DNA from: Brasilonema sp. CT11
GTDB taxonomy: Bacteria; Cyanobacteriota; Cyanobacteriia; Cyanobacteriales; Nostocaceae
DNA length: 64,000 bases
Direction: 5' to 3'
NCBI RefSeq assembly: GCF_017982655.1
Contig: NZ_JABXYX010000006.1
Coordinates: 62,001-126,000, forward strand
Positions 13,226 through 62,650 of this stretch are shown here, piece after piece. The position numbers and the translations under genes were made by a program. Positions within the stretch are counted from its first letter, which is position 1; every line of letters starts with the position of its first letter. Under the pieces are notes generated by a model. That model saw only the letters and a program-made list of their open reading frames with translations. It did no database searches and had not been told where the DNA came from.

Positions 13226-14959
13226 TTAGAACAAAAAATAACGCTGTGTCATAGGCAAAGAGGTAGCAGGTTCACAAGTTAACAACTTCCCATCTACCCT
13301 GACATGGAAAGTTTCTGGATCAACATCAATTTGTGGGGTAGCGTCGTTGAGTTTCAAATCTGCTTTTTTCAACTCACGTGTTTTGGAAACTGCTACCGTC
13401 CGAGTTTTTAAACCAAGTTTTTCGGGTATACCCTGTTTTAAAGCTTCGTTGGAAACGAAAGTTATAGAAGTTTCTGCCATTGCACCGCCAAAGCTACCAA
13501 ACATCGGGCGCATATGAACTGGTTCGGGGGTGGAGATACTAGCATTAGGATCGCCCATTTGTGAGTAAGCGATCATTCCTCCTTTGATCACAGTTTCTGG
13601 TTTGACGCCAAAAAATGCTGGCTTCCACAAACACAAATCTGCTAACTTTCCTTCTTCAACCGAACCTATATGATCTGCAACGCCATGAGCAATGGCAGGA
13701 TTAATGGTATATTTGGCGATGTAGCGTTTTGCCCTAAAATTATCATGAGTTTGGTGAGGATGACCAGGAGAAGGTAATAATCCTTTCTGTACTTTCATCT
13801 TATGGGCAGTTTGCCAGGTGCGAGTAATCACTTCCCCTACCCTTCCCATTGCTTGAGAATCGGAAGACATAATGCTGATAATCCCCATATCATGCAAAAT
13901 GTCCTCAGCCGCAATCGTTTCCTTGCGAATTCTGGATTCGGCAAATTTGACATCTTCACGAATGTTTTTATCGAGGTGATGGCATACCATCAACATATCG
14001 AGATGTTCGTCGAAAGTATTGATCGTGTAGGGACGGGTGGGATTAGTAGAAGCGGGCAAAACATTTGCTAGACTACAGACTTTCAGAATATCAGGCGCGT
14101 GACCACCGCCAGCACCTTCTGTATGGAAAGTGTGAATCACACGGTTTTTAAAAGCAGCAATGGTATTTTCCACAAATCCTGCTTCATTCAGAGAGTCGGT
14201 GTGAATTGCGACTTGTACATCGTACTCATCTGCAACCGAAAGACAAGTATCAATAGCGTTCGCCGTGGTTCCCCAATCTTCGTGCAGCTTTAAACCCATA
14301 ACTCCCGCAGCAACTTGCTCTATCAATCCTTCAGGTTTGCTAGTATTACCTTTGCCCAAGAAACCAACATTGACAGGGAAGCCATCAGCCGCTTGTAGCA
14401 TGCGGTAAATATTCCAAGGACCAGGGGTACAAGTTGTGGCGAGGGTACCCGTGGCAGGACCTGTACCACCGCCAATTAAGGTTGTCGTACCAGAGGCGAT
14501 CGCAGTTTCGATTTGCTGAGGACAGATAAAGTGAATGTGGGTATCAATCGCCCCAGCAGTCAGAATTTTGCCTTCTCCTGCGATCGCTTCCGTCCCAGGA
14601 CCAATAATAATATCTATATTGTCTTGTGTGTAAGGATTGCCTGCTTTACCAATTTTAAAAATTTTCCCGTCTTTAATGCCAACATCTGCTTTAATAATGC
14701 CTGACCAATCAAGAATCAAGGCGTTGGTGATCACCACATCTACTGCACCATCAGCATTTGAAATCGGGGATTGTCCCATACCATCCCGAATCACCTTACC
14801 ACCGCCAAATTTTACCTCTTCGCCGTAAAGCGTACCACCATAGGTTGTGTAATCTTGTTCCACTTCAATGAACAAATCCGTATCAGCAAGACGGATGCGA
14901 TCGCCAATCGTAGGACCAAAAGTATTGGTATATTCCCGTCGGTTCATAAAATAACTCAT
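13226..14959 (-). CDS. ureC: urease alpha subunit
   Basis: UreC is the catalytic subunit of nickel urease, which splits urea to ammonia and carbamate. The ATG at 14959 gives [20 protein letters not shown], the normal N-terminus, and 577 residues; the frame upstream of it is not family sequence. All active-site motifs are present. HIHFICPQ gives the nickel-binding His pair. [11 protein letters not shown] carries the carbamylated Lys. [10 protein letters not shown] and [12 protein letters not shown] supply two more nickel His. [20 protein letters not shown] is the mobile flap with the catalytic His, and [12 protein letters not shown] carries the nickel-binding Asp. The gene is separated from ureF by an IS982-type element ending about 130 bp upstream, so it may now depend on read-through or its own promoter. 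Confidence 0.96.
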
Positions 14960-15086
14960 GTTTAATATCTTTCTTGTGATCTGTAGAAACGCAATCTCTA
15001 CATTACTCCTCTCTCTGTGTACTCTGCGCCTCTGCGGTTCAAAAATAGGTATTTTTCTGCCGGTTCGCAAGTAAGAACAACTAACT

Positions 15087-16107
15087 AACGCGATGTGCAA
15101 CTTATTCTGTCACAAGGTCATCAAACTGTAAGGGTTCCAAAGCAAACAGACGATTTAACCAGACGCATACAGTGTGAGCTAATAGTTTGCGGTTTAAACG
15201 ACTTGTCAAATGCCACATATCCACTAGCCCACACTTTTTCAAAATTAAAGCGATTGCCTACGGCAGAGCTACGCTTAACGCTAAGTTGTCCAATTACCGT
15301 TTCAATTAGCCGGCGAACGGTTTGAAGTAACTTTACCCAGCGTTTGGGACGAGTGTCGTGCATATTGGAACGTAGGGCTGTTTGCAAATTAATGCCATAG
15401 CGTGCTAGTTCCTGGCGCAGAGTAGCACTAATGTATCCTTTGTCACCTATTACCATCCCCTGAATCAAACGCACGATATCCCATATAGCCTCCCGTTCAT
15501 CTCCATTAGCAGGGGTTAAAGTGAACCCTGTAATGACTCCACAGGCACTAATGAGTAAGTGACCATGAAATCCGTAATATGTTTCCTTTTTTGCAGCGCA
15601 GTAACCATAGCTGGCTTCGCCTTGAAAGCTACGACAGCCAGGAGCACGGCTAAAGCAACATAGCGGAATCGGAATTCCATCAATAATGTGCGTATTATCA
15701 CTCAGAGCGCCAAGTTCCCTTGCCAAGAGTTGTTGTAGCTTTTGCTTGTACTGCCATAAGTTTGCAGCTTGTCGTACAAAGGTTGAACGGCTTTTCATCT
15801 GGGGAAACATTGACATCCAGTGACGGCGAAAGTATTGCCAGAACTTTCACTGTATCAATACCTTGAAATTCTGCCACAATTTCCATCGTAATCACTTCAC
15901 TGTCACTTAAAGAGGGCTGAAATCCGCGACTACGTACAGGTTGACCATTGATTACTTCTTTCAATAGGTCGTCCACGCAGCAAAATACAGCTGTGATAAA
16001 GTCTTCCATAGATAACATTTGTCTCACCCTAGCAAGAGATAACAATCACAATCTCTCGATTAAGCATAGGGTGGGACTTTCATCTTTGGAAAGTTGCACA
16101 TCGCGTT
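15087..16107 (-). mobile_element. IS982-family insertion sequence between ureF and ureC
   Basis: An element of about 1.02 kb with 17-bp terminal inverted repeats: AACGCGATGTGCAACTT at 15087-15103 and AAGTTGCACATCGCGTT at 16091-16107, a perfect match. It is flanked by AACT at 15083-15086 and 16108-16111, a plausible 4-bp target duplication. The size and ends fit IS982. It carries one frameshifted transposase on the minus strand. The right end falls on the ureF stop codon: without the insertion ureF would end AGT-TAG, with it AGT-TAA, so the UreF protein is unchanged. Confidence 0.85.
15121..16045 (-). pseudogene. IS982-type transposase, frameshifted
   Basis: The frame from 16045 encodes the N-terminal part (EDFITAVFCCVDDLLKEV, SLSDSEVITMEIVAEFQGID). 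It loses the family sequence at about 15838-15846, where a one-base shift is needed to continue as WQYFRRHWMSMFPQ and STFVRQAANLW. The second frame runs to the stop at 15121, with GEASYGYCAAKKETYYGFHG, VIGDKGYI (DDE-type Asp) and RRLIETVIGQL (catalytic Glu). IS982 transposases are normally one frame of about 290-300 codons, so this is a single-indel pseudogene, unless +1 slippage at the GTTCTGG site rescues it, for which I see no strong signal. Confidence 0.85.
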
Positions 16108-16810
16108 AACTAGCAAATAATCTCTGAGCGAGTTTTTGATGCCGCATCTGAGCAATATCTATAGCCGGAGTACAAGACCACATTTCCTCCAGACTCATTG
16201 ATGCAGCAGTTTGGTAAACTGTCTCAATCTCTGGTGCTAACTGAAGCAGAACTCGTTGTGCTTGCAGATGTCCCACAACACTTAAACGGATAGCAGCACC
16301 CAACAAACCAGTGACGAAGCTATGCAAAAAACCCAGCACTGTATCCTGTTCACTCAAAAGAGCTGCTCTACCAACTACAGCAAAGACAACTGGATGTAAG
16401 CAATGAATTTTACCTTTGGCAGCATCTTGATTTAAAATGTCCAATTGAGAGTCTTGCCAAGTCGAACTGGCAACCATAAGTAATGCTCGTCCGCTTTTGC
16501 GTTGGGTTTCACGCGTTTTCTCAACTAGGGTTTGAGCAAATAGTCGAGCATCTGCGGCTCGTACTGCTTCTAAATCAGCGATCGCACTTCCTCGGTAGGC
16601 GTGGATCAGTGCTACTGTATCTGTGACTCCTATTTTGTTACGTAATAATAGCCGCAAAAAAGTTTGCAAATCTTCTGATCCACGCAGTTGATTTTCTTGG
16701 ACTAAGGATTCTAACCCGTGAGATAAAGTAAAAGATCCAGAGGGGAAGAAAGAATCAGACAACTGCATTAAGGCGAGTTGTTGGGCGAACACGGATGCAG
16801 GTAAACTCAT
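16106..16810 (-). CDS. ureF: urease accessory protein UreF
   Basis: UreF works in the UreD/UreF/UreG complex that delivers nickel to apo-urease and gates UreG GTPase activity. The 234-residue, mostly helical protein shows the family signature [21 protein letters not shown] at the N-terminus and [14 protein letters not shown] in the last third. The start overlaps the ureE stop by 4 bp, and it is the last gene of the tightly packed ureG-D-E-F run. The stop codon is contributed in part by the inserted IS982 element; the C-terminus LAQRLFAS is what the uninterrupted gene would also encode. Confidence 0.92.
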
Positions 16811-17331
16811 GAGCCGTGATCGTGATGAGTGTGTGGAGAAAAGTCGAGATATTGTTGTGGCGATCGCAGTTCAAAGTCAATCTCTAACCCAGGAATCTGA
16901 AAATCCCGAACGGTTGATTCCATAACTTCTACATCTGCTGCTAATTGAACGTAGAGTTTACCATCTTGTACGATAATAGGCCAATGGTGATTACCCAAGA
17001 CATGACCCAGATGAATTAATTTAATAGCATGCTCAGTAACTGGCTTCGTAAAACTAAGTACCATGACCTTTTGCTCTTGCAGATGAACAAGTAGTAACTT
17101 ACCTTCTTCTGTTTCTAAAACATCTCCTTCCCGCAGTGCCCAATCTCGACTTTTCACAATTCCTACAGCCACACCAGTAGTCGTGTGAGCGTGAATTCGA
17201 CCTTTGCGGCTATCAGTTTGACTAATATGAACTTCCCAGCAAAGTGCTGAGGATCGAGCTTTTTCTATCTGTTCAGATAAGCTGACATTTTCTTTTGAAT
17301 TGCCCAGGTAAATTTCTGCTAATTCAGTCAT
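16807..17331 (-). CDS. ureE: urease nickel metallochaperone UreE
   Basis: UreE binds Ni2+ and hands it to UreG for insertion into urease. The 174 residues include the N-terminal peptide-binding domain with [20 protein letters not shown] (about 59-78). The C-terminal metal-binding domain contains [14 protein letters not shown] (about 105-118), where the conserved GNHHWP His pair forms the dimer metal site. The C-terminal tail [11 protein letters not shown] is short but His-rich, suited to nickel storage. Stop and start codons overlap ureF and ureD by 4 bp each, so translation is coupled. Confidence 0.93.
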
Positions 17332-18206
17332 AAATCATTGGGTAAAGAAGGTTGATTAATCGAGCGACGTACACAGTTTAAGGCGTATTTTAAATAATTT
17401 TTGAGTTCGTGAGTTCCACTAGCCATAGCTCTAATCAGCAGACCCTTGTTTCGGGGTAAGATTGAGCTTGCTACAGTCAGACCGGAGCAGTTCGCTGCTT
17501 CTAAGTCTTCTACACTTTTACTCAATAATTCCAGATTTGTTTCAGGTAAAACTATAATCACATTACCAAGGACAGGTGAAGAGGCAAAGAGGTTAGTTTT
17601 AGTAAAGAGATTTCGCTTTCCTTCCAAGCGCATGGCATCAGTAAACCATAGCTCTCCACAAGTAGAAGTCACTTGCAGGCGGCTGAAGTAGTATTGAAAC
17701 TGGTAAAATTCTCCCCTCGCCAACCTTCCAGGTAGAATCATTTCACTCAAAAATAATTTTCCAGTCGGATGAATCTTGATATTTATAGTTTGCTCCAAAC
17801 TCGCATCAGCAAACAAAATTAATGCTTCTGGTACAAACTCTAAGGTAGCTTTTTCCCCAATTTCAATTTCATAATTGGTTGTCGCTTTTGAGCCTGCTAT
17901 AGGCATCGAATGAACTTTAGTAGCAGCCTGCTCTGTAAGATAAACGCTAGTATGATCTGCTAGTTGCAAAGATATATTCAACTTATCTTGTGCCAGTAAA
18001 CCTGGAGATGTACTCATAATATAGAGGTAGGCGCGGTGCAAATCAGCATCATCAAGACGGAATACTTGAGATACCCTCAAAGGATAAGCTGTGTATTGAT
18101 GGTCAAGAATAGTTTTACCAAAGCGATTGCCCGAAGGGCAGACGCCTTTAGGCGTAACGCACTTCAGTCCTAACTCCAAGTTATAGCGCTTCTCATCTAC
18201 GTCCAT
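17328..18206 (-). CDS. ureD: urease accessory protein UreD, with a repeat-encoded N-terminal insert
   Basis: UreD is the scaffold of the nickel-insertion complex. The 292-residue protein is a divergent member, but VYLTEQAATKVHSM, the stretch EALILFADASLEQ, and FYQFQYYFSRLQV followed by GELWFTDAMRLEG are recognisable family blocks. Residues around 16-29 (CVTPKGVCPSGNR) are encoded by a 38-bp palindromic repeat (18123-18160) of the kind dispersed in cyanobacterial genomes; it is inserted in frame. The start at 18206 lies 14 bp inside the end of ureG, and the stop overlaps ureE by 4 bp. The N-terminus before the insert is uncertain. Confidence 0.88.
   Translation of the reverse strand: MDVDEKRYNLELGLKCVTPKGVCPSGNRFGKTILDHQYTAYPLRVSQVFRLDDADLHRAYLYIMSTSPGLLAQDKLNISLQLADHTSVYLTEQAATKVHSMPIAGSKATTNYEIEIGEKATLEFVPEALILFADASLEQTINIKIHPTGKLFLSEMILPGRLARGEFYQFQYYFSRLQVTSTCGELWFTDAMRLEGKRNLFTKTNLFASSPVLGNVIIVLPETNLELLSKSVEDLEAANCSGLTVASSILPRNKGLLIRAMASGTHELKNYLKYALNCVRRSINQPSLPNDL
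18123..18160. repeat. 38-bp palindromic repeat inside ureD
   Basis: The plus strand reads GCGATTGCCCGAAGGGCAG followed by ACGCCTTTAGGCGTAACGC: two small hairpins (GCCC-GAA-GGGC and ACGCC-TTTA-GGCGT) with HIP1-like ends. The same type of unit is found between genes elsewhere in such genomes. Here it is read through in frame as part of UreD. Confidence 0.65.
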
Positions 18207-18870
18207 CTACTTCGACGTTCATCTGCGATTCGTTAACTCTTTGATGCATTACAGAAGCACTGCGAAACAGAACTGTCTCCAAAATAAAATCGATTACCTC
18301 GTCCAATCCTTCTCCCGTCTTGCAATTAGTATATGCAATAGGTTTGCCTCGACGGTATATCGGCGCTTCTTTGCGGATTAACTCCAAATCAGCACCAACA
18401 TAAGGAGCAATATCAATTTTATTCACCACCGCTAAATCAGCTTGTACAAAGCCAGGACCATTTTTACGGGGGATATCATCTCCCGCACCTACATCAATCA
18501 CAAAAATATACGAATCCACCAAATCATAGCTAAAAGTGGAGGCAAGATTATCACCACCACTTTCAATCAAGATTAAGTCTAATTCAGGAATGAGTAACTC
18601 AAAATCCTTTACTGCTAAAAGATTCATAGTTGGATCTTCCCGAATTGCTGTGTGTGGACAGCTACCTGTTTCTACTCCTATAATCCTTTCTGCTGGCAAA
18701 AACCCGCGACTTTTGAGTCGATCTGCATCTTCCGTAGTTAGTAAGTCATTGGTGACAACTGCTACTTCAATGCCCTGATTCATCAATGTTGGGACTATAG
18801 ACTCTATTAGAGCTGTTTTTCCGCTTCCTACTGGTCCCCCAATCCCCAGTCGAGCTGCTGACTTTAGCAT
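18193..18870 (-). CDS. ureG: urease accessory GTPase UreG
   Basis: UreG is the SIMIBI-class GTPase that carries nickel from UreE to the UreD-UreF complex and uses GTP hydrolysis to release it. The 225 residues show the P-loop GIGGPVGSGKTALIE (about 10-24), the metal-binding Cys-Pro-His in GSCPHTAIREDPTMN, LILIESGGDNLASTFS (Walker B-like) and the base-specificity motif NKIDIAPYVGAD. Length is slightly over the usual 205-220 because of a C-terminal tail. It is the first gene of the ureG-D-E-F run and overlaps ureD by 14 bp. No NtcA-type GTA-N8-TAC site was found in the 300 bp upstream. Confidence 0.95.
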   Translation of the reverse strand: MLKSAARLGIGGPVGSGKTALIESIVPTLMNQGIEVAVVTNDLLTTEDADRLKSRGFLPAERIIGVETGSCPHTAIREDPTMNLLAVKDFELLIPELDLILIESGGDNLASTFSYDLVDSYIFVIDVGAGDDIPRKNGPGFVQADLAVVNKIDIAPYVGADLELIRKEAPIYRRGKPIAYTNCKTGEGLDEVIDFILETVLFRSASVMHQRVNESQMNVEVDGRR

Positions 18871-19230: not shown

Positions 19231-20244
19231 ATGGATAATACTCTACAGCAAATAGTCGAGCAGGTTGAGCCGACTTCGCACAAGCAAACAGATACAGATT
19301 TTGCCAATGCCTCTGCGACGATACAGAAACCCGTAATAATAGCAGGAACATCTGATGGCTTGCTGTTTCTCGATTCCAGGCAATATGTTGAACTTGAAGG
19401 TCATTCTATCACTGCTCTTGCCTCAAGTCCGGATGGGTTGTGGGTTATCGTTGATCGCAACTCGGTATGGCATCGCAACCCAGAAGGCGAGTGGCACCAA
19501 ATAACTTCAATTGATGATTTAAAGCTGAACTGCATCCTGCCTTACAATGGCTCAGTTCTAGTCGGAACATCGCAAGCCCATCTCATCCGCATTGCAGACG
19601 GAAGCACTCATCGCATCAATTGCTTTGAGACGGCTGAGGGACGAGATGAGTGGTATACGCCGTGGGGAGGTCCTCCAGATGTTCGTTCGATGGCTATAGG
19701 TCAATCTGGTGAACTCTACGTGAATGTGCACGTTGGAGGCATTTTGCGCTCTGATGACCAGGGTAAGTCATGGCAACCCACTATCGAGGTTGATGCAGAT
19801 GTCCATGAAGTACGGACAGTTCCATCTCATCCGGATCTCGTGTTGGCGGCTACAGCCCAGGGACTGGCTGTGAGTAAAGATAGAGGGAATTCTTGGAGCT
19901 TTTCACGCGAAAACCTACATGCTGCTTACGCACGAGCCATAGCTGTGTGTGAAGAAACCATTTTGATGACTGCTTCTACCGGTCCTAGTGGTCACAAAGC
20001 AGCCATCTATCGACACCCACTCGACAAGCCAGGAGCTTTCGAGAAATGTGAGCGAGGGCTGCCGGAGTGGTTCGATCACAATATCAACACGGCAACTCTT
20101 TCTACGTCAGGGAATCTGGCTGCTTTCGGAACCACTGACGGTCAGGTCTTTTTCTCGGACGATGCTGGCAGTACGTGGAAGCAAGTTGCAGCAGATTTGG
20201 CTTCTATCTGCTGTCTGAATCTTATGGCGACTTCTAAGAAATAA
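19231..20244 (+). CDS. BNR/Asp-box beta-propeller protein (Ycf48/sialidase-like fold)
   Basis: A 337-residue protein made of repeated propeller blades. Three Asp-box motifs S-x-D-x-G-x-T/S-W are clear: SDDQGKSW (about 174-181), SKDRGNSW (about 215-222) and SDDAGSTW (about 310-317). No signal peptide is seen, so a cytosolic scaffold or an enzyme with an unknown substrate is possible. The catalytic residues of sialidases are not recognisable. GGAGG lies 8 bases before the ATG. It sits between ureB and ureG but on the opposite strand, so it is not part of the urease transcript. Its base composition looks slightly more GC-rich than its neighbours, which may mean transfer. Confidence 0.75.
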   Translation: MDNTLQQIVEQVEPTSHKQTDTDFANASATIQKPVIIAGTSDGLLFLDSRQYVELEGHSITALASSPDGLWVIVDRNSVWHRNPEGEWHQITSIDDLKLNCILPYNGSVLVGTSQAHLIRIADGSTHRINCFETAEGRDEWYTPWGGPPDVRSMAIGQSGELYVNVHVGGILRSDDQGKSWQPTIEVDADVHEVRTVPSHPDLVLAATAQGLAVSKDRGNSWSFSRENLHAAYARAIAVCEETILMTASTGPSGHKAAIYRHPLDKPGAFEKCERGLPEWFDHNINTATLSTSGNLAAFGTTDGQVFFSDDAGSTWKQVAADLASICCLNLMATSKK

Positions 20245-20294: not shown

Positions 20295-20921
20295 TCATTT
20301 TTTCTGTTTCTCTAAAGATCCATTCACTAATCCGTTGAAACCATAAATTTCACGGCTACCACCGAATGGGACTAACTCGACTTCTCTTTCATCTCCTGGT
20401 TCAAATCTTATTGCTGTCCCGGCTGGAATATTTAAGCGTTTCCCGTAAGCTTGATTGCGGTCAAATTGCAGACCTTTCTTGTCTTGACTGCCATCATTAA
20501 CTTCATAAAAGTGGAAATGAGAACCAACTTGAATTGGGCGATCGCCTTGATTACTGACTCTGATTTTGGTAATCTCTCGCCCAGCATTGAGTTCGATTGG
20601 TTCTGATTTAGTAACTATTATTTGTCCTGGAGTCATTACTATTTTTTCGACTTTAATCGAGCAAGCCTCGTTGTTAAAGTTTTTTTCCTCAACCTTAATA
20701 TTTTTCAGGTCACCGACATTACTAGTAAAGATTTTACTCCTACCCCTAAATTCCTCGTCTTCGTATATCGTGACTTTCATGCCTGCTGGCACTGTTAAGG
20801 AACTCAGCTTCTTGTCACCAATTCCCAAATCGTAAATCTTATACTCCCCCTCTCCCAGTTCCTTGTGATTTCCCTTGTAGTTAGGAGCTTCATAAATCAC
20901 TACTTTGTTACTTGTATACAT
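20295..20921 (-). CDS. ureB: urease beta subunit fused to an N-terminal beta/gamma-crystallin domain
   Basis: Residues 96-204 are a complete urease beta subunit ([70 protein letters not shown]), a structural part of the (UreABC)3 enzyme. Residues about 5-93 are an added beta/gamma-crystallin domain with two Greek-key motifs: [11 protein letters not shown] and [11 protein letters not shown] (aromatic-x-x-x-x-x-aromatic-x-G). Two loops resemble the calcium-binding (N/D)(N/D)xx(S/T)S site: DKKLSS and NNEACS. The ATG at 20921 has AAGGGA 8 bases upstream, while the internal ATG at 20636, where normal UreB would begin, has no Shine-Dalgarno sequence, so the fusion is probably the real product. A short insert (NDGSQDKKG) lies before LQFDR. 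ureA lies 59 bp upstream on the same strand. Confidence 0.93.
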
Positions 20922-20980: not shown

Positions 20981-21286
20981 TTAATCTTGAATGGGATTAT
21001 GTACCGTTACTAATTTTGTTCCATCAGGAAAAGTTGCTTCTACTTGCACTTCATGGATCATTTCTGGTATTCCATCCATAACATCATCCCTTTTCAGCAG
21101 CTTTCCACCCTCACTCATTAATTGACTCACAGTTTTTCCTTCTCTGGCACCTTCTAAAATAGCAGCAGATATATACGCCACTGCTTCGGGGTAATTTAGC
21201 TTTAACCCCTTGTCCTTACGTCTTTCTGCTACTAGAGCCGCTGTGAAAATGAGCAATTTATCTTTTTCTTGAGGTGATAGTTGCAT
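20981..21286 (-). CDS. ureA: urease gamma subunit
   Basis: UreA is the small structural subunit of urease. The 101 residues (family about 100) are typical throughout: [48 protein letters not shown]-like [10 protein letters not shown] and the C-terminal [28 protein letters not shown] stands 7-8 bases before the ATG. It is the first urease gene in transcription order and is followed after 59 bp by the crystallin-ureB fusion. The upstream region 21287-21480 presumably holds the promoter; no exact NtcA box could be found there. Confidence 0.95.
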
Positions 21287-26162: not shown

Positions 26163-26378
26163 TTTTTATATATTTTTTTGGGAAAGTAAAAATGACAACG
26201 TTTTGTAACAAACAACCTACAAACAGGTTACATAGTCTACAAACGTGATATTAATACTCAAGAGCTACTATTTTACTCCTTCGAGATCATTTTTGATTGG
26301 CATAACTGCAAACCAGATGATAAGGGCACACCATTGCTGTGCTCCCCAAAGCTAACCCCATCATCCAAAAATTGTAAA

Positions 26379-28985
26379 ATGCTGAGAATAAAACTGGTGC
26401 ATCATATTCTCTTTTTCCTCACCTTACCCCTAGCAACCATAGCAACTCTTGCGCATATCACCACCGCAGTTGCCCAACAAGTGACCCCTGATGGAACTGT
26501 ATCCACCACAGTTATCACTCCTGACGGTAAAAATTTTACTATCAATGATGGTACAACAAGAGGAGGAAATCTTTTTCACAGCTTCAAAGAATTTTCTGTT
26601 CCCACAGGTGGTTCAGCTAACTTTAACAATGCAGCCAATATACAAAACATTATCAACCGAGTCACGGGTGGTTCTGTTTCTAGTATTGATGGTTTGATTA
26701 AAGCCAATGGTGCAGCAAACGTGTTCTTACTCAATCCAGCAGGAATTGTTTTTGGACCAAATGCCAGCTTGAATATTGGTGGTTCCTTTTTAGGAACTAC
26801 AGCGCACAGTTTCCTATTTGACAATGGATTTGAGTTTAGCGCCACCAATCCCCAAGCACCGCCACTGTTAACTATAAATGTTCCGATTGGGTTGAGGTTT
26901 CGGGATAATCCTCAAAATATCGTTAATCGGTCTAGAGCCGTTGATAATAGTGGCAATATTGTTGGTCTTGGTGTTCGACAAGGAAACTCCTTAACACTAG
27001 TAGGCGGTAATGTCACCTTAGATGGTGGGGTACTGTATGCACCAGGAGGACGTATTGAAATCGGCAGTTTTGACAGCAATCAGGTTGTGAATCTCGTCCC
27101 AGTAGAACAGGGATTATCGCTCTCGTATCAAGGTACCCCCAGTTTTCGAGACATCCAGTTTTCTAAGGGTGCATCCGCCAATGTCACAGCAGATGGCAGC
27201 GGTTCTATTGCCATACTCGGGAGGAACATCAATTTCACCGATAAATCAGCTCTATTAGCTAATACCCTTGGTAATCAAAATGGGGGAGAAATTAGCATTG
27301 TTGGTGACTTTATAGGTTTCAATAACTCCAGCATCACCTCTAACACCTCCAGTTCCGGGAACGGCGGACAAATAAAACTGGATGCCAACAACATCAAGTT
27401 TGAGAATCGCAGTGGTGTAAACATTCAGACGTCGGACAGGGGTAATGCCGGAAATATCAACGTTCGTGCAAATTCTTTGGGAATCGAAGGCGGAACTGGC
27501 TTTGTGAGCACAACGACAGGAAGTAGCACTGGTAAAGCCGGAGACATCAACATTGCTGTCAATGGTCCGATGGCGATCGCCTTCGCAGGTATACAAACCG
27601 ACTCCTTTGGGACGGGTAATGCTGGCAAAATCAACATTAATGCAAATTCTTTGCAGATTGACACCTCGGGTCTCTTAAGCCGTGCGTTCAAGACAGATCA
27701 AGCCGGAGAAATCAACATTAATGTCGCAGACTCTCTTACGACCAACAAAACAGGTATACAAACCAGCACCTATGGCACGGCTGACGCGGGAAAAATCAAC
27801 ATCAGTGCAAATTCTTTTCAGTTTAAAGGACAAATTCTTAGCGAGGTGGGGGTAAGTAGCACAGGTCGGGGTGGAGAAATCAACATTACCGCAGGCTCTC
27901 TGGAAGTCCTACAAACTCCAGGAAATAGCACAGTTATATCTACAAAAACTGCGGGTATTGGTGACGCTGGAAAAATAAACATCAATGCAAATTCTTTTTT
28001 ACTGGAACGCTCAGGAGTCACTAGCAGTACCGAGGGAAGTGGCACAGGTAACGCCGGAGAAATCAACATTACCGCAGGTCTATTTAAGACCAACAACTCA
28101 GCATACGTGGAGACAAACAACTCGGGCAGTGGTAATGCTGGAGACTTGAAAGTGCGAGCAAAAACCCTAGATATTCGTCAAACAGAATTGGGAGTGGGAA
28201 ATACTGGTAATGGTAATGCTGGTAATTTGGAGATTGTGGCTGACACCATTAAGCTTGATGACAGTTCGCTTAACGCCAACACTCGTGGGGGAGAAGGCAA
28301 CATTACCGTGAAATCTGGTGACTTAATCTTGCGCAACAACGGCAAAATCACCACTAATGCTACAGGCACGGCTAATGGCGGCAACATTACGATTGATTCC
28401 CCATTAATCGTCGCTTTTCCCTTAGAAAATAGTGACATCACTGCCAATGCTTTCAGCGGTAACGGTGGGAACATCACAATTAGAACTCAAGGTGTGTTTG
28501 GAATCCAGCGCCGTTCCCAATTAACACCTGAAAGTGACATCACAGCATTTTCGCAACAAAACCCATCCTTAAACGGGACTATCAACATTATCACCCCAGA
28601 TCTTGACCCCACTCGTGGATTATTTGAATTGACAGAAACTGTTATCGACCCTGCACAGCAGGTTGCCCAAAATCCCTGTGTAAAAGGTTTTGGTAGTACT
28701 TTCACCATCACAGGACGTGGCGGATTGCCATCTGACCCCAATAAAATCCTCAGTAGTGACAATGTGCGCGTTGATTTAGTTGAACCTGTTCCCAGTACGG
28801 TAAGTTCAACAAGTACAACAGAAAAGAAACCATCTCAACAGCCAAGTGTCAAAAAGATAGTACCAGCCCAAGGTTGGATATATAACGAAAAAGGTCAGGT
28901 CGTGCTGGTGGCTTATGATCCTACCAAAACGGGTCCACAACGATCGCAGCCAGCACCAACTAGTAGTTGTGCTGCAACGAGATAA
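26379..28985 (+). CDS. two-partner-secretion filamentous haemagglutinin-type exoprotein (TpsA)
   Basis: A TpsA-type secreted protein of 868 residues. The ATG at 26379 gives a signal peptide MLRIKLVHHILFFLTLPLAT and a cleavage region near TTAVAQQ; the TTG at 26334 is less likely. The N-terminal haemagglutination-activity (TPS) domain covers about residues 30-160, with GGNLFHSFKEF, NRVTGGSVSSIDG, ANVFLLNPAGIVFGPNAS and ATNPQAPPLL. A long beta-helix of repeats of the G-N-A-G-(E/K/D)-I-N-I type follows. The C-terminus carries PCVKGFGSTFTITGRGGLP, LSSDNVRVDLVEPVP and PAQGWIYNEKGQVVLVAYDP, a cyanobacterial end module. It would leave the cell through a TpsB pore; none is in the window. A paralogue lies at 57575-60025. 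Confidence 0.9.
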   Translation: MLRIKLVHHILFFLTLPLATIATLAHITTAVAQQVTPDGTVSTTVITPDGKNFTINDGTTRGGNLFHSFKEFSVPTGGSANFNNAANIQNIINRVTGGSVSSIDGLIKANGAANVFLLNPAGIVFGPNASLNIGGSFLGTTAHSFLFDNGFEFSATNPQAPPLLTINVPIGLRFRDNPQNIVNRSRAVDNSGNIVGLGVRQGNSLTLVGGNVTLDGGVLYAPGGRIEIGSFDSNQVVNLVPVEQGLSLSYQGTPSFRDIQFSKGASANVTADGSGSIAILGRNINFTDKSALLANTLGNQNGGEISIVGDFIGFNNSSITSNTSSSGNGGQIKLDANNIKFENRSGVNIQTSDRGNAGNINVRANSLGIEGGTGFVSTTTGSSTGKAGDINIAVNGPMAIAFAGIQTDSFGTGNAGKININANSLQIDTSGLLSRAFKTDQAGEININVADSLTTNKTGIQTSTYGTADAGKINISANSFQFKGQILSEVGVSSTGRGGEINITAGSLEVLQTPGNSTVISTKTAGIGDAGKININANSFLLERSGVTSSTEGSGTGNAGEINITAGLFKTNNSAYVETNNSGSGNAGDLKVRAKTLDIRQTELGVGNTGNGNAGNLEIVADTIKLDDSSLNANTRGGEGNITVKSGDLILRNNGKITTNATGTANGGNITIDSPLIVAFPLENSDITANAFSGNGGNITIRTQGVFGIQRRSQLTPESDITAFSQQNPSLNGTINIITPDLDPTRGLFELTETVIDPAQQVAQNPCVKGFGSTFTITGRGGLPSDPNKILSSDNVRVDLVEPVPSTVSSTSTTEKKPSQQPSVKKIVPAQGWIYNEKGQVVLVAYDPTKTGPQRSQPAPTSSCAATR

Positions 28986-57574: not shown

Positions 57575-60025
57575 CTATTTTGTTGCAGCACAATTACTAG
57601 TAGGCGCTGGCTGTTCACGCTGTGGACCAGTCTTAGTCGGATCATAAGCGACTAGCACCACCTCACCTTTTTCGTTATATATCCAGCCTTGAGCAGGTAT
57701 TATCTGTTTAAGAGGTGGCTTTTTAGATGGTTGCTTTTGTGTTGGAGTTGTTAAACTTACCTTACTAGGCACAGGCTGAATTAAATTAACACGCACATTA
57801 TCACTACTGAGGATTTTATTTGGATCAGTTGGGAATCCGCCGCGTCCGGTGGTGGTGAAACTGTTACCAAAACCTTTGACACAGGGATTTAGAGCAATCT
57901 GCTGCGCCGGATCAACCACAGTTTCTGTTAATTCAAATAACCCTTGAGTGGGGTCAATATCAACTACATTAATTAGTACATTACCACTCGACTGATTATT
58001 TACCCCTGTAGCGGTGATATCACTTGTATTTGAAGAAGCAGGATTGCGAGACTGAAAGCCAAAAATACCTTGGCTATTGATTTTGATATTACCGCCACGA
58101 GAATTAGCAGAGTTAGCAGTGATATCGCTATTGTCAAAACCAACCAGGATACTGGTATTAATATTGATGTTGCCGCCAATAACGTTTTCTCCTGTGGCGT
58201 TGGTTGTGATGTTGCTATTGCGACTTATGATCAAATCTTTTGAGTTAATATTAATTGTCGCTTGCTCTCTACTCGGGTCAACTTTAGCGCTTTGTGTATT
58301 GGCGGTGAGTAAAGCATTGTTGTTTAAGCGGATAGAGCGAGCATTTAATGTCATGTTGCCTGCAGTTCCTGTTCCGAGACTTTGCACGCTTACTCTTGCC
58401 CCATCTTGTACTAGCAAAGTATTGGTTTTTACCGTAAAATCACCCGCATCCCCTGTTGAGTTTGGCGTTGTAGAAGCAAACAAGCCACTGGCAACCTGAC
58501 CATCAGCACTTGTACCAATCAGTTGTACATCTTGGGCATCAACAGTCAAACTACCCCCCTTGCCCGCACCGGAAGTAGTAGTACTTACCTGTGCCCCATC
58601 TCGCACGAGCAAAGTATTGGTTTTGAGCGTTATATCACCTGCATTCCCTGTTGAGTTTCGCTCTGCATCAGCACTCAAGCCACTGCCAACCTGACCATTA
58701 GCGCTTGTACCAATCAATTGCACATCTTGCGCATCAACGCTCAAATTTCCCCCCTTACCCGCACCGAAAGTGCTAGTAGATACCTGTGCCCCATCTCGCA
58801 CTAGCAAAGTATTGGTTTTGAGCGTAAAATTACCCGCATCTCCTGTTGAGTTTGACCCTGCATAAGCAAACAAGGTACTGGGAAAACCATCAGCACTCGT
58901 ACCAATTAATTGTACATCTTGGGCATTAACCCTCAAATTTCCCCCCTTGCCCGCACTGAAAGTGACAGCACCTACCTGTGCCCCACCCTCAAGCCGCAAG
59001 CTATTAGCAATGATACTGACATCAATTCCCTGTCCATTTGCTCCTGGTCGCAGCTGATTAGCAATAAAACTATTGTTAAGATTTATTGCCCCGGTAGCAT
59101 TAACCGAAATATCTCCTGCTTGAGTACCAACTGTCCTTAAGCCTTCTCTTATTCCAGCGCCGAGGAAACTTTCTCCCGTCATCTCTAAATTCCGGGCATT
59201 AACTGCAATCCTACCGCCCCCGCCTGAGATAACATTAACTCTCGCACCATTCGTCAGCGATACATCCGCTCGCTGCACTCCCACAGGAAAACTCAAGCTG
59301 CCATCATTATTGAGTCCTATCGTCCCAACAGCAGATAATCCTCCTAACTCAACTCGTCCTCCTGGTGCATACAGTATTCCATTATCTAAGTTGACATTAC
59401 CGCCTATCAATGCTACTAGTGAGTTTCCTTCTGGTACCTGAAGAATAGGATATTCAGTTGTCGTGGATTGTGTGGTGATATTGCCCGGATTATTCCGAAA
59501 TCTCAAACCAATCGGAACATTTATCGTTAACAATGGCGGTGCTTGGGGATTTGTCGCACTAAACTCAAATCCATTCTTAAACAGCAAACTATTTGCCGTA
59601 CTTCCTAAAAAAGAACTACCCACATCCAAGCGAGCGTTTGGTCCAAAGATAATTCCATTCGGGTTGATCAAGAACAGATTCGCTTTGCCCAACACACCCA
59701 AAACACCTTGAATATTTGAGACATTACCCCCAGTCACTCTGGTGAGTATGTTTGCAATCCCTGCCGGATTGGAAAAATAAGCTCCTCTACCAGCGTTTAT
59801 ATTAAATTCTTGAAAACTGTGAAACAAGTTCGCCCCGCGAGTTGCGCCCCCGTCAATCCTGTCGCTAGGAACACCTTTAATCACATTCTGTGTGACGCGG
59901 GAGTTCTCTGCACCCAGCGTGTTATCAGGAGTGATTTGTGCTTTGGCTACGGCAAAGTAGGTCAAGCTGAATACAGTTGCAAGGGGTAACGTGAGGAGAA
60001 AGAGTGGGTGACGCACTTGTTTCAT
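57575..60025 (-). CDS. two-partner-secretion filamentous haemagglutinin-type exoprotein (TpsA), second copy
   Basis: An 816-residue TpsA protein with a signal peptide (HPLFLLTLPLATVFSLTYFA, cut near AKAQ). The TPS domain is at about 30-155, with GANLFHSFQEFNINAGRGAY, ILTRVTGGNVSNIQG and ANLFLINPNGIIFGPNA. The beta-helix contains three near-identical repeats of about 63 residues (around 350-545) sharing VDAQDVQLIGTSA, GNAGDITLKTNTLLVRDGAQ and VSTTTSGAGKGG. The C-terminal module (NPCVKGFGNSFTTTGRGGFP, LSSDNVRVNLIQPVPS, AQGWIYNEKGEVVLVAYDP) is nearly the same as in the copy at 26379-28985. No TpsB gene is in the window. It is convergent with the NRPS-like gene, 43 bp apart, and lies inside the 42-bp-repeat-bounded segment. 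Confidence 0.9.
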   Translation of the reverse strand: MKQVRHPLFLLTLPLATVFSLTYFAVAKAQITPDNTLGAENSRVTQNVIKGVPSDRIDGGATRGANLFHSFQEFNINAGRGAYFSNPAGIANILTRVTGGNVSNIQGVLGVLGKANLFLINPNGIIFGPNARLDVGSSFLGSTANSLLFKNGFEFSATNPQAPPLLTINVPIGLRFRNNPGNITTQSTTTEYPILQVPEGNSLVALIGGNVNLDNGILYAPGGRVELGGLSAVGTIGLNNDGSLSFPVGVQRADVSLTNGARVNVISGGGGRIAVNARNLEMTGESFLGAGIREGLRTVGTQAGDISVNATGAINLNNSFIANQLRPGANGQGIDVSIIANSLRLEGGAQVGAVTFSAGKGGNLRVNAQDVQLIGTSADGFPSTLFAYAGSNSTGDAGNFTLKTNTLLVRDGAQVSTSTFGAGKGGNLSVDAQDVQLIGTSANGQVGSGLSADAERNSTGNAGDITLKTNTLLVRDGAQVSTTTSGAGKGGSLTVDAQDVQLIGTSADGQVASGLFASTTPNSTGDAGDFTVKTNTLLVQDGARVSVQSLGTGTAGNMTLNARSIRLNNNALLTANTQSAKVDPSREQATININSKDLIISRNSNITTNATGENVIGGNININTSILVGFDNSDITANSANSRGGNIKINSQGIFGFQSRNPASSNTSDITATGVNNQSSGNVLINVVDIDPTQGLFELTETVVDPAQQIALNPCVKGFGNSFTTTGRGGFPTDPNKILSSDNVRVNLIQPVPSKVSLTTPTQKQPSKKPPLKQIIPAQGWIYNEKGEVVLVAYDPTKTGPQREQPAPTSNCAATK
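58390..58985. repeat. three tandem repeats of about 190 bp in the second TpsA gene
   Basis: The units share TCGCACTAGCAAAGTATTGG-type and TGTACATCTTGGGCATCAAC-type stretches, spaced about 185-195 bp. They are in frame and could expand or contract by recombination. Confidence 0.7.
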
Positions 60026-61537: not shown

Positions 61538-62650
61538 TTATTTTGCCAAAAATAACAAACTAGAATCAATCTTTTCCAAACTTGCACAACCACTGAGCGC
61601 CATAGCCACATCTAATTCATCTCGGAGAATATCAATGACATGAGCAACACCAGCTTCTCCTGCTACGGCTAATCCCCACAACACAGGACGTCCCACAAGC
61701 ACTGCTTTTGCTCCCAGTGCTAGTGCTCTGAGGATATCAGTACCTCTACGGATACCACCATCTAATAATACTTCAGCGCGATCGCCCACAGCATCTACCA
61801 CTTCAGCCAAAGCGTCAATAGATGCAACGGCTCCATCTAATTGACGCCCACCATGATTAGACACAACAATTGCCTTTGCTCCAGACTCGACAGCACGAAC
61901 AGCATCATCTGCCCGTAAAATTCCTTTCACCACCAAGGGGAGCGGACATAAAGACTCAAACCATTCTAAATCTTGCCACGTAACTGCAGGGTCAAGTTGC
62001 TGAGCAAAATAAGTAAACAATCCAGATTCCCCTTGTTTTTGGGAAATGTTCAACCCTGATAAATTTGTGAGATTAGCCAATTGCATATCTGGTGGTAGAG
62101 CAAACTCATTGCGTTTGTCTCGTTCTCGCCGTCCCAACACAGGAGCGTCTACAGTTATACAAAGTGCTTTATAACCCGCAGCATAAGCCCTTTCAACCAA
62201 GGCACGAGTTAGCCCTCTGTCTTTGTGGATGTAAAGCTGGAACCATTGGGGAGTTTGAAGATTTGTGTCGTGACGTACTGCTGCTACTTCTTCTATGCTT
62301 TTGGTAGAAAGAGTACTCAACACCATGCCAACACCAGCAGATGCAGCGGCTCTTGCTGTTGCAACTTCTCCTTGTGGATTGGCAAGACATTGAAACGCCA
62401 TCGGAGCAATCAACAAAGGTATTTGAAGCGGTTGAGCTAAAACCTCAGTTGCTAGGTTGCGCTGACTGACATCTACAAGCGATCGCGGACGAAGTTTAAA
62501 TTTTTCAAAAGCAGCGCGGTTATCCCGTAGTGTCACTTCATCCCACGCACCGCTAGCGTAGTAGTCCAAAGCCATTTTAGACAGAGATTTAGTCGCTAGC
62601 TGTTCGTATTCAAATAAGTTAAGTGGTTTAAACGATTTTAGTTTTTCCAT
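61538..62650 (-). CDS. FMN-dependent alpha-hydroxy-acid oxidase (L-lactate/glycolate oxidase-like)
   Basis: A TIM-barrel flavoenzyme of about 370 residues that oxidises L-lactate or glycolate to the 2-oxo acid, usually with O2. Motifs: LNLFEYEQLA at the start, the FMN-phosphate and substrate regions LLIAPMAFQCLANPQGE and VLSTLSTKSIEEVA, WFQLYIHKDRG, KALCITVDAPVLGRRERD, LPLVVKGIL (catalytic-site Lys) and VVSNHGGRQLDGA with the catalytic His and Arg. The sequence is close in style to the lactate-oxidase-type enzyme of Nostoc. The ATG at 62650 gives a normal N-terminus; longer TTG/ATG starts at 62719 and 62683 are possible. The gene stands alone. Confidence 0.9.
   Translation of the reverse strand: MEKLKSFKPLNLFEYEQLATKSLSKMALDYYASGAWDEVTLRDNRAAFEKFKLRPRSLVDVSQRNLATEVLAQPLQIPLLIAPMAFQCLANPQGEVATARAAASAGVGMVLSTLSTKSIEEVAAVRHDTNLQTPQWFQLYIHKDRGLTRALVERAYAAGYKALCITVDAPVLGRRERDKRNEFALPPDMQLANLTNLSGLNISQKQGESGLFTYFAQQLDPAVTWQDLEWFESLCPLPLVVKGILRADDAVRAVESGAKAIVVSNHGGRQLDGAVASIDALAEVVDAVGDRAEVLLDGGIRRGTDILRALALGAKAVLVGRPVLWGLAVAGEAGVAHVIDILRDELDVAMALSGCASLEKIDSSLLFLAK

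Follow-up and report, generated by a model that had tools for sequence, protein, structure and literature searches.

A beta/gamma-crystallin domain fused to the urease beta subunit in Brasilonema and other cyanobacteria

The stretch of DNA analysed here (the window) comprises 64,000 nucleotides from one contig of Brasilonema sp. CT11 (NZ_JABXYX010000006.1, positions 62,001 to 126,000) and contains a urease operon in the order ureA, fusion gene, ureG, ureD, ureE, ureF and ureC (Table 1). Before the last gene, ureC, stands an insertion sequence whose terminal inverted repeats measure 23 bp (91%) and whose transposase is split over two overlapping ORFs; the listed ureC ORF begins at a TTG (15100) inside this element. 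In the window's strain the element may cut ureC off from the promoter of the operon. Next to ureB, on the opposite strand, all five fused genomes of the window's genus carry a BNR/Sortilin-like gene; no such gene was found on the stretches fetched for the five other fused operons and for the two unfused congeners. Elsewhere in the window, two large related proteins (26334-28985 and 57575-60025) were seen by eye to resemble filamentous haemagglutinin-type secreted proteins.

Table 1. Coordinates of the urease operon, the parts of the fusion gene and the intervening elements, in window positions.
Feature	Position	Strand	Basis or remark
ureC (catalytic subunit)	13226..14959	-	likely start ATG 14959; listed ORF reaches 15100
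Insertion sequence between ureF and ureC	15081..16113	.	23-bp terminal inverted repeats
ureF	16106..16810	-	PF01730
ureE	16807..17331	-	PF02814/PF05194
ureD, window's operon type	17328..18206	-	PF01774
ureG	18193..18870	-	PF02492, operon position
BNR/Sortilin-like gene between ureB and ureG	19231..20244	+	Pfam scan, neighbourhood comparison
Crystallin-UreB fusion gene, 208 aa	20295..20921	-	ORF translation, Pfam; found in 9 other species genomes too
UreB proper, residues 96-208	20295..20636	-	PF00699 at 98-201; Met96 = unfused UreB start (MIPGEI/MIPGQI)
Calcium motif 2, NNEACS, residues 83-88	20658..20675	-	aligns with NNNVSS of protein S
Calcium motif 1, DKKLSS, residues 36-41	20799..20816	-	aligns with NNTISS of protein S
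Beta/gamma-crystallin domain, residues ~6-93, Greek keys 10-17 and 53-60	20643..20906	-	PF00030, AF2 model
ureA (gamma subunit)	20981..21286	-	PF00547

A sequence-only reading of this DNA had proposed that the ureB gene encodes a complete beta subunit behind an N-terminal crystallin domain with two Greek-key motifs, and each part of that description was borne out. A single ORF spans both domains. Scanned with hmmscan, its product matched Crystall (PF00030) with 36.4 bits against a cut-off of 25 (E 5.7e-9), in two stretches of which residues 49-93 gave the best match, and Urease_beta (PF00699) with 144 bits (cut-off 25) over residues 98-201, covering positions 1-97 of the 98 in the model. Both Greek keys obey the signature Y-x4-Y/F-x-G ([16 protein letters not shown]). 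The two Pfam families were matched together in all eight fusion proteins scanned of the ten known (E <= 0.001). Among the best 60 of 70 matches in a PDB sequence search, urease chains covered residue 96 onward only and crystallins covered the N-terminal part. An AlphaFold model built from eight fused sequences had a mean pLDDT of 66.4 and a pTM of 0.46; block means were 65-88 over residues 1-90 and 32-53 at the junction, with parts of UreB low too, and confidence in the modelled placement of the crystallin domain relative to UreB is correspondingly low. Using Foldseek, the modelled domain superposed on the N-domain of protein S (1nps) at 2.0 A, with a TM score of 0.82 by target length, and on clostrillin and a Flavobacterium domain at 2.1 A. 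On this model, the N-terminal part of the window UreB is a beta/gamma-crystallin fold. A PF00030 search of the window's own genome gave no match at E 0.001, which we read as a false negative because both the protein scan and the crystallin-domain profile search detect the domain; with the fused-domain profile, no second crystallin domain was found in that genome at E 1e-6. The crystallin-UreB fusion is real and conserved: its existence is firm, and its function is a matter of inference.

By genome labels, the fusion occurs in ten species genomes from five genera and two families, so that the search of other cyanobacteria added nine carriers to the window. The carriers are the Brasilonema group, Amazonocrinis, Cyanocohniella, Anabaena azotica and one Microcoleus MAG. 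The counts come from overlapping samples of relatives, family, order and phylum. Among 149 relative genomes (own included), eight carried the full fusion and 13 had no match; the other UreB matches mostly began at residues 85-99 and a few at 61-82, and two genomes (G075 and G112) matched over the crystallin part only. The 217 family genomes included nine carriers, namely the window, four of six congeners, two members of another genus and one member each of two more. When 388 genomes sampled evenly across the order were searched with the crystallin-domain profile, three fusions came up, two of them already counted and one new (G522), and the phylum sample of 386 genomes returned only the two fusions already counted. 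Finally, a scan of GTDB contigs with two short peptide patterns, which may miss divergent cases, gave seven loci that were all fusions by alignment: Brasilonema angustatum, Scytonema tolypothrichoides VB-61278, B. bromeliae, Anabaena azotica FACHB-119, Amazonocrinis nigriterrae CENA67, the Microcoleus MAG and Cyanocohniella sp. LLY.

The start codon determines whether the crystallin domain is made. The window gene has AAGGGA 8 nt upstream of the long start, and a purine-rich run resembling a Shine-Dalgarno sequence precedes the long start, as judged by eye, in all ten fused genes. At the window's internal ATG (20636), no Shine-Dalgarno sequence was seen within the preceding 22 nt. The earlier preference for the long start, which rested on the same contrast, is upheld by these observations for the window and qualified by three orthologs (G266, G030 and G522), in which AAGG or AGGA lies upstream of the internal Met96 start but 14 nt away. 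Codon 96 is ATG in eight of the ten fused genes, and this Met matches the one at MIPGEI or MIPGQI in 11 of 11 unfused UreBs examined, which indicates that the module was joined at UreB residue 1. The two exceptions have AAT (G082) and ACT (G038) at this position and lack any in-frame ATG, GTG or TTG across residues 51 to 125. Since start codons are absent there, UreB of these two genomes cannot start at its own N-terminus, and an internal start at Met96 is ruled out as the general case; TTG or GTG codons inside their crystallin domains (8, 32 and 44, or 32, 44 and 50) may still serve as starts. That the window's own UreB is translated from Met96 and its crystallin domain never made would fit the retention of Met96, its identity with the unfused start and the upstream motif of the three orthologs, but this reading is extremely improbable given the Shine-Dalgarno sequences at the long start, the two genes with no start codon near residue 96 and the selection on the crystallin codons described below.

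Selection was assessed as dN/dS by Nei-Gojobori counts in the 45 pairs among the ten fused genes. For UreB the ratio was 0.04-0.22 in every pair, and for the crystallin part it was at most 0.28 in 39 of the 41 pairs with finite dS, four of the 45 being saturated. By these counts, purifying selection acts on the crystallin part as it does on UreB. A pseudogene or chance ORF is ruled out by this selection together with the joint presence of both Pfam families in the eight proteins scanned. The two exceptions fall among the nine comparisons with the window, where the crystallin codons differed from those of G004 by 8 nonsynonymous and 2 synonymous changes (dN/dS 0.74; Fisher p 0.016 against UreB) and from those of G002 (B. 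angustatum) by 8 nonsynonymous and 4 synonymous changes (dN/dS 0.49; Fisher p 0.12 against UreB), both p values being uncorrected. This suggests relaxed constraint on the crystallin domain in the window's lineage.

The calcium sites of such domains follow the consensus N/D-N/D-X-X-S/T-S, given together with the Greek-key signature in PMC3551895. Seven of the ten fused proteins fit the consensus at site 1 (mostly as DN[KQ]LSS) and eight at site 2; six fit at both sites and nine at one or more. The orthologs of A. nigriterrae and S. tolypothrichoides are among those that fit. Site 1 is off consensus in G002 and G030 and site 2 in G038, and the window protein matches at neither site. The two loops earlier described as close to a calcium site are indeed present in the window protein, but each is one residue off consensus. 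In a profile alignment, both motif positions coincide with the protein S motifs listed in Table 1, and the PDB entry 1prr for protein S is titled 'complexed with calcium'. Judging from the motifs, Ca2+ binding is thus likely for the fused family and doubtful in the species of the window; a calcium role, plausible for the family as a whole, is weakest for the window's own copy. With neither of its sites on consensus, the window's domain may bind Ca2+ weakly and serve mainly a structural purpose.

The operon that carries the fusion belongs to a distinct type. Relatives of the window's UreD at E 1e-30 were present in 19 of the 217 family genomes, nine of them fused and ten unfused, and in 40 of the 388 order-sample genomes. 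In 19 other clusters that were fetched, UreD was 23-27% identical to the window's in 15 and was not seen in four. Twenty unfused genomes with the window's UreD type were fetched: the order A-B-G-D-E-F was found in 17, with ureC following in 11 of these, and in the other three (G434, G491 and G447) the fetched stretch holds only ureD, or ureD and ureE. Among the fused operons, ureC follows ureF in eight of ten on the fetched stretches, and in G003 the genes from ureG onward lie on another contig. Operons of this compact ureA-B-G-D-E-F(-C) type, which have a UreD lineage of their own, occur at scattered points in the order (L109, L142-L154, L159-L161). The data suggest that the common cyanobacterial urease genes have repeatedly been replaced by this compact type.

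A maximum-likelihood tree of UreA, UreG, UreD, UreE and UreF from 27 genomes (UreB left out; G522 with 285 residues only) separated the ten fused from the 17 unfused operons with an ultrafast bootstrap of 100, the split being unrooted and the tree midpoint-drawn. Among 39 crystallin domains (10 fused, 29 others), the urease-fused ones formed one group with a support of 100, and their loop before motif 2 is about six residues longer than in most other modules aligned. Branching within the fused group differs between the two trees: the operon tree places G030 with G266 and G522 (99), and the domain tree shows these three as successive branches (87-91). The splits are most simply explained by one fusion, and no domain loss was seen among the ten fused genomes; we infer that the crystallin module was joined to UreB once and then kept. 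The Microcoleus member falls together with that of Anabaena azotica (99). The 5.7-kb contig that holds its fusion carries a ribosomal protein S1 gene that is 98-99% identical to those of two other Microcoleus genomes, which have unfused UreB only. This identity assigns the contig to the Microcoleus host, so that contamination is ruled out as the source and the case is better explained by lateral transfer. The fused operon has probably moved between families, into Microcoleus.

One UreB and one UreC were found in the window's own genome (8.8-Mb assembly, 96% complete), and no second, unfused UreB was found there or in G082, G038 or G522. With a single UreB in its genome, the fusion is probably the only beta subunit of the window's strain. 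The window UreC aligns with that of Klebsiella over residues 52-624, and six nickel-site segments, which hold the nickel ligands, are intact in it and present in all seven other fused operons compared. In G038, G030 and G266, alignment showed a few UreC changes beside the nickel ligands. Some of the six crude nickel-site patterns tried did not match G038 and G030; the alignment shows THIH to SHIH, HTFHTEG to HTYHTEG and SSDSQAM to ASDSQAM, and the ligands themselves are unaffected. By analogy with known ureases, the fusion UreB may assemble into an active (UreABC)3. As a separate observation, all eight fused operons examined encode a UreC with an insertion of five residues (GGTxY) near its N-terminus, ahead of EVKFGGGK, at 14825-14839 on the minus strand of the window. 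A similar insertion occurs in unfused G361 and is absent from 14 other unfused UreCs checked. The idea that this insertion is a partner of the crystallin domain is weakened by G361, and the insertion is not tied to the domain.

Like the ureases of Klebsiella aerogenes (2kau) and Sporosarcina pasteurii (1ubp), that of the window has complete UreB, UreA and UreC, and its operon shares the accessory set and the UreC nickel-ligand segments with bacterial three-subunit ureases. It differs from them in the N-terminal beta/gamma-crystallin domain of UreB, PDB ureases matching from residue 96 only. The N-terminus of beta is also fused in the UreA of Helicobacter pylori and H. mustelae (gamma-beta fusion; 1e9y, 3qga) and in the single-chain ureases of plants (3la4), where the PDB sequence search places the start of the beta part at residue ~105-133. 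This end of the subunit therefore tolerates fusion; the partner in those proteins is the urease gamma subunit, whereas that of the window is an unrelated domain. On the crystallin side, the modelled fold resembles protein S (1prr/1nps), clostrillin (5ht8) and the Flavobacterium domain (3hzb) at 2.0-2.1 A, the Greek-key signature is common to microbial beta/gamma-crystallins including vibrillin, and both calcium motif positions of protein S match. Unlike these crystallins, the window domain is fused to a metabolic enzyme subunit and its motifs are degraded. Among the matches listed in open-access literature, no description of a crystallin-urease fusion was recognised, and a term search of the text of a cyanobacterial urease gene survey (PMC6737895) found no mention of crystallin. 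Together with the PDB matches, this agrees with the earlier statement that no described urease with such a domain was known to its author.

Crystallin modules also occur in other cyanobacteria on haem peroxidase, subtilase, astacin-like protease, Vps62-like and RTX/lectin proteins (L043, L040, L042, L044, L046). The presence of the module on several proteins of this phylum marks it as an add-on rather than something tied to urea. In BLAST alignments these modules were 22-48% identical to the window's domain, and by eye their calcium motifs are mostly of the canonical ND type; they differ from it in their partner proteins, and the urease-fused domains group apart from them. Two 208-residue frames with a crystallin domain (L073 and L074) were candidates for urease fusions by length only and on examination proved not to be.

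We tentatively favour the proposal that the crystallin domain is a Ca2+-tunable stability or assembly module of urease. The module, joined to the first UreB residue within the ureA-B-G-D-E-F(-C) operon, has been kept by purifying selection, and in its hosts the fusion is the sole UreB found. Bound at the two Greek-key sites, Ca2+ would stiffen the crystallin domain, and with only a few residues separating that domain from UreB, the stiffened domain would stabilise the assembly of UreB into the holoenzyme. Known ureases are (UreABC)3, in which each beta subunit occurs three times. With this stoichiometry and the fusion as the only UreB found, each enzyme would bear three crystallin domains, presumably next to the UreA/UreB junction, since other ureases (1e9y, 3la4) fuse gamma to the N-terminus of beta. 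The sites would fill during rises of Ca2+ under stress or nitrogen shortage; in the window's species, where they have drifted off consensus, the structural contribution may be the larger one. According to PMC3551895, the related vibrillin domain has a Tm ~10-14 C higher with Ca2+ than without and is protected by the ion more against unfolding by urea than by guanidinium; reported Ca2+ affinities of such crystallin domains are 4-100 uM. For Anabaena, PMC4284465 describes Ca2+ transients after nitrogen deprivation and after osmotic or salt stress, and about ten times more free Ca2+ in mature heterocysts than in vegetative cells. The more far-reaching claim, that Ca2+ switches the assembly or stability of the enzyme through its three crystallin domains and so makes it a calcium-regulated urease, we consider unlikely. 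Resting cytosolic Ca2+ probably lies below the 4-100 uM at which such domains bind it, which counts against a Ca2+-tunable module.

The main rival to the Ca2+-tunable module is an architectural role independent of Ca2+, in which the crystallin domains pair with one another and thereby join urease trimers into higher-order assemblies or keep them from aggregating. The Helicobacter pylori 12-mer consists of trimers linked by an extra UreA segment. In line with such a role, the domain is retained even where its calcium motifs are degraded, the fused domains share the longer loop before motif 2, and according to PMC3551895 the vibrillin domain assembles into dimers and octamers, and pairing is seen in many single beta/gamma domains. 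At least one consensus calcium site is nevertheless kept in nine of the ten fused proteins, which would be needless for a purely structural role, and we judge the architectural reading to be the less probable of the two, though a serious one. There is only a small chance that the domain instead controls maturation, modulating from the UreB N-terminus the binding of UreD, UreF and UreG and hence nickel loading. In Klebsiella, the UreB N-terminus takes part in docking UreB to UreA-UreC. The junction exactly at UreB residue 1, the position of ureB ahead of ureG, the accessory set inherited along with the fusion and the UreC insertion of the fused operons would all suit such control, but unfused operons of the same type carry the same accessory genes, the insertion is found in unfused G361 too, and throughout the fused operons of the window's genus, five in number, ureB is split from ureG by a foreign gene on the other strand. 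The sequence-only reading had also suggested that the domain ties urea breakdown to calcium or carbonate handling, and a link of this kind to CaCO3 formation, however well it suits the Ca-type motifs and the rise in pH and carbonate that urease causes, is highly improbable and finds no support here, since the protein, with no signal sequence seen by eye, is presumably cytosolic, no mineralisation gene was recognised among the neighbours read and the window's calcium sites are off consensus.

Urease is an intensively studied nickel enzyme, and its known variants join urease subunits to one another. The conserved crystallin fusion, whose partner domain is unrelated to urease and potentially binds Ca2+, suggests an input that regulates or stabilises the enzyme, and the occurrence of the same operon type with and without the crystallin domain offers a ready-made comparison. 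If the less likely reading of a calcium-regulated urease is true, the use of urea nitrogen in heterocyst-forming cyanobacteria would be coupled to the Ca2+ transients of nitrogen starvation and osmotic stress.
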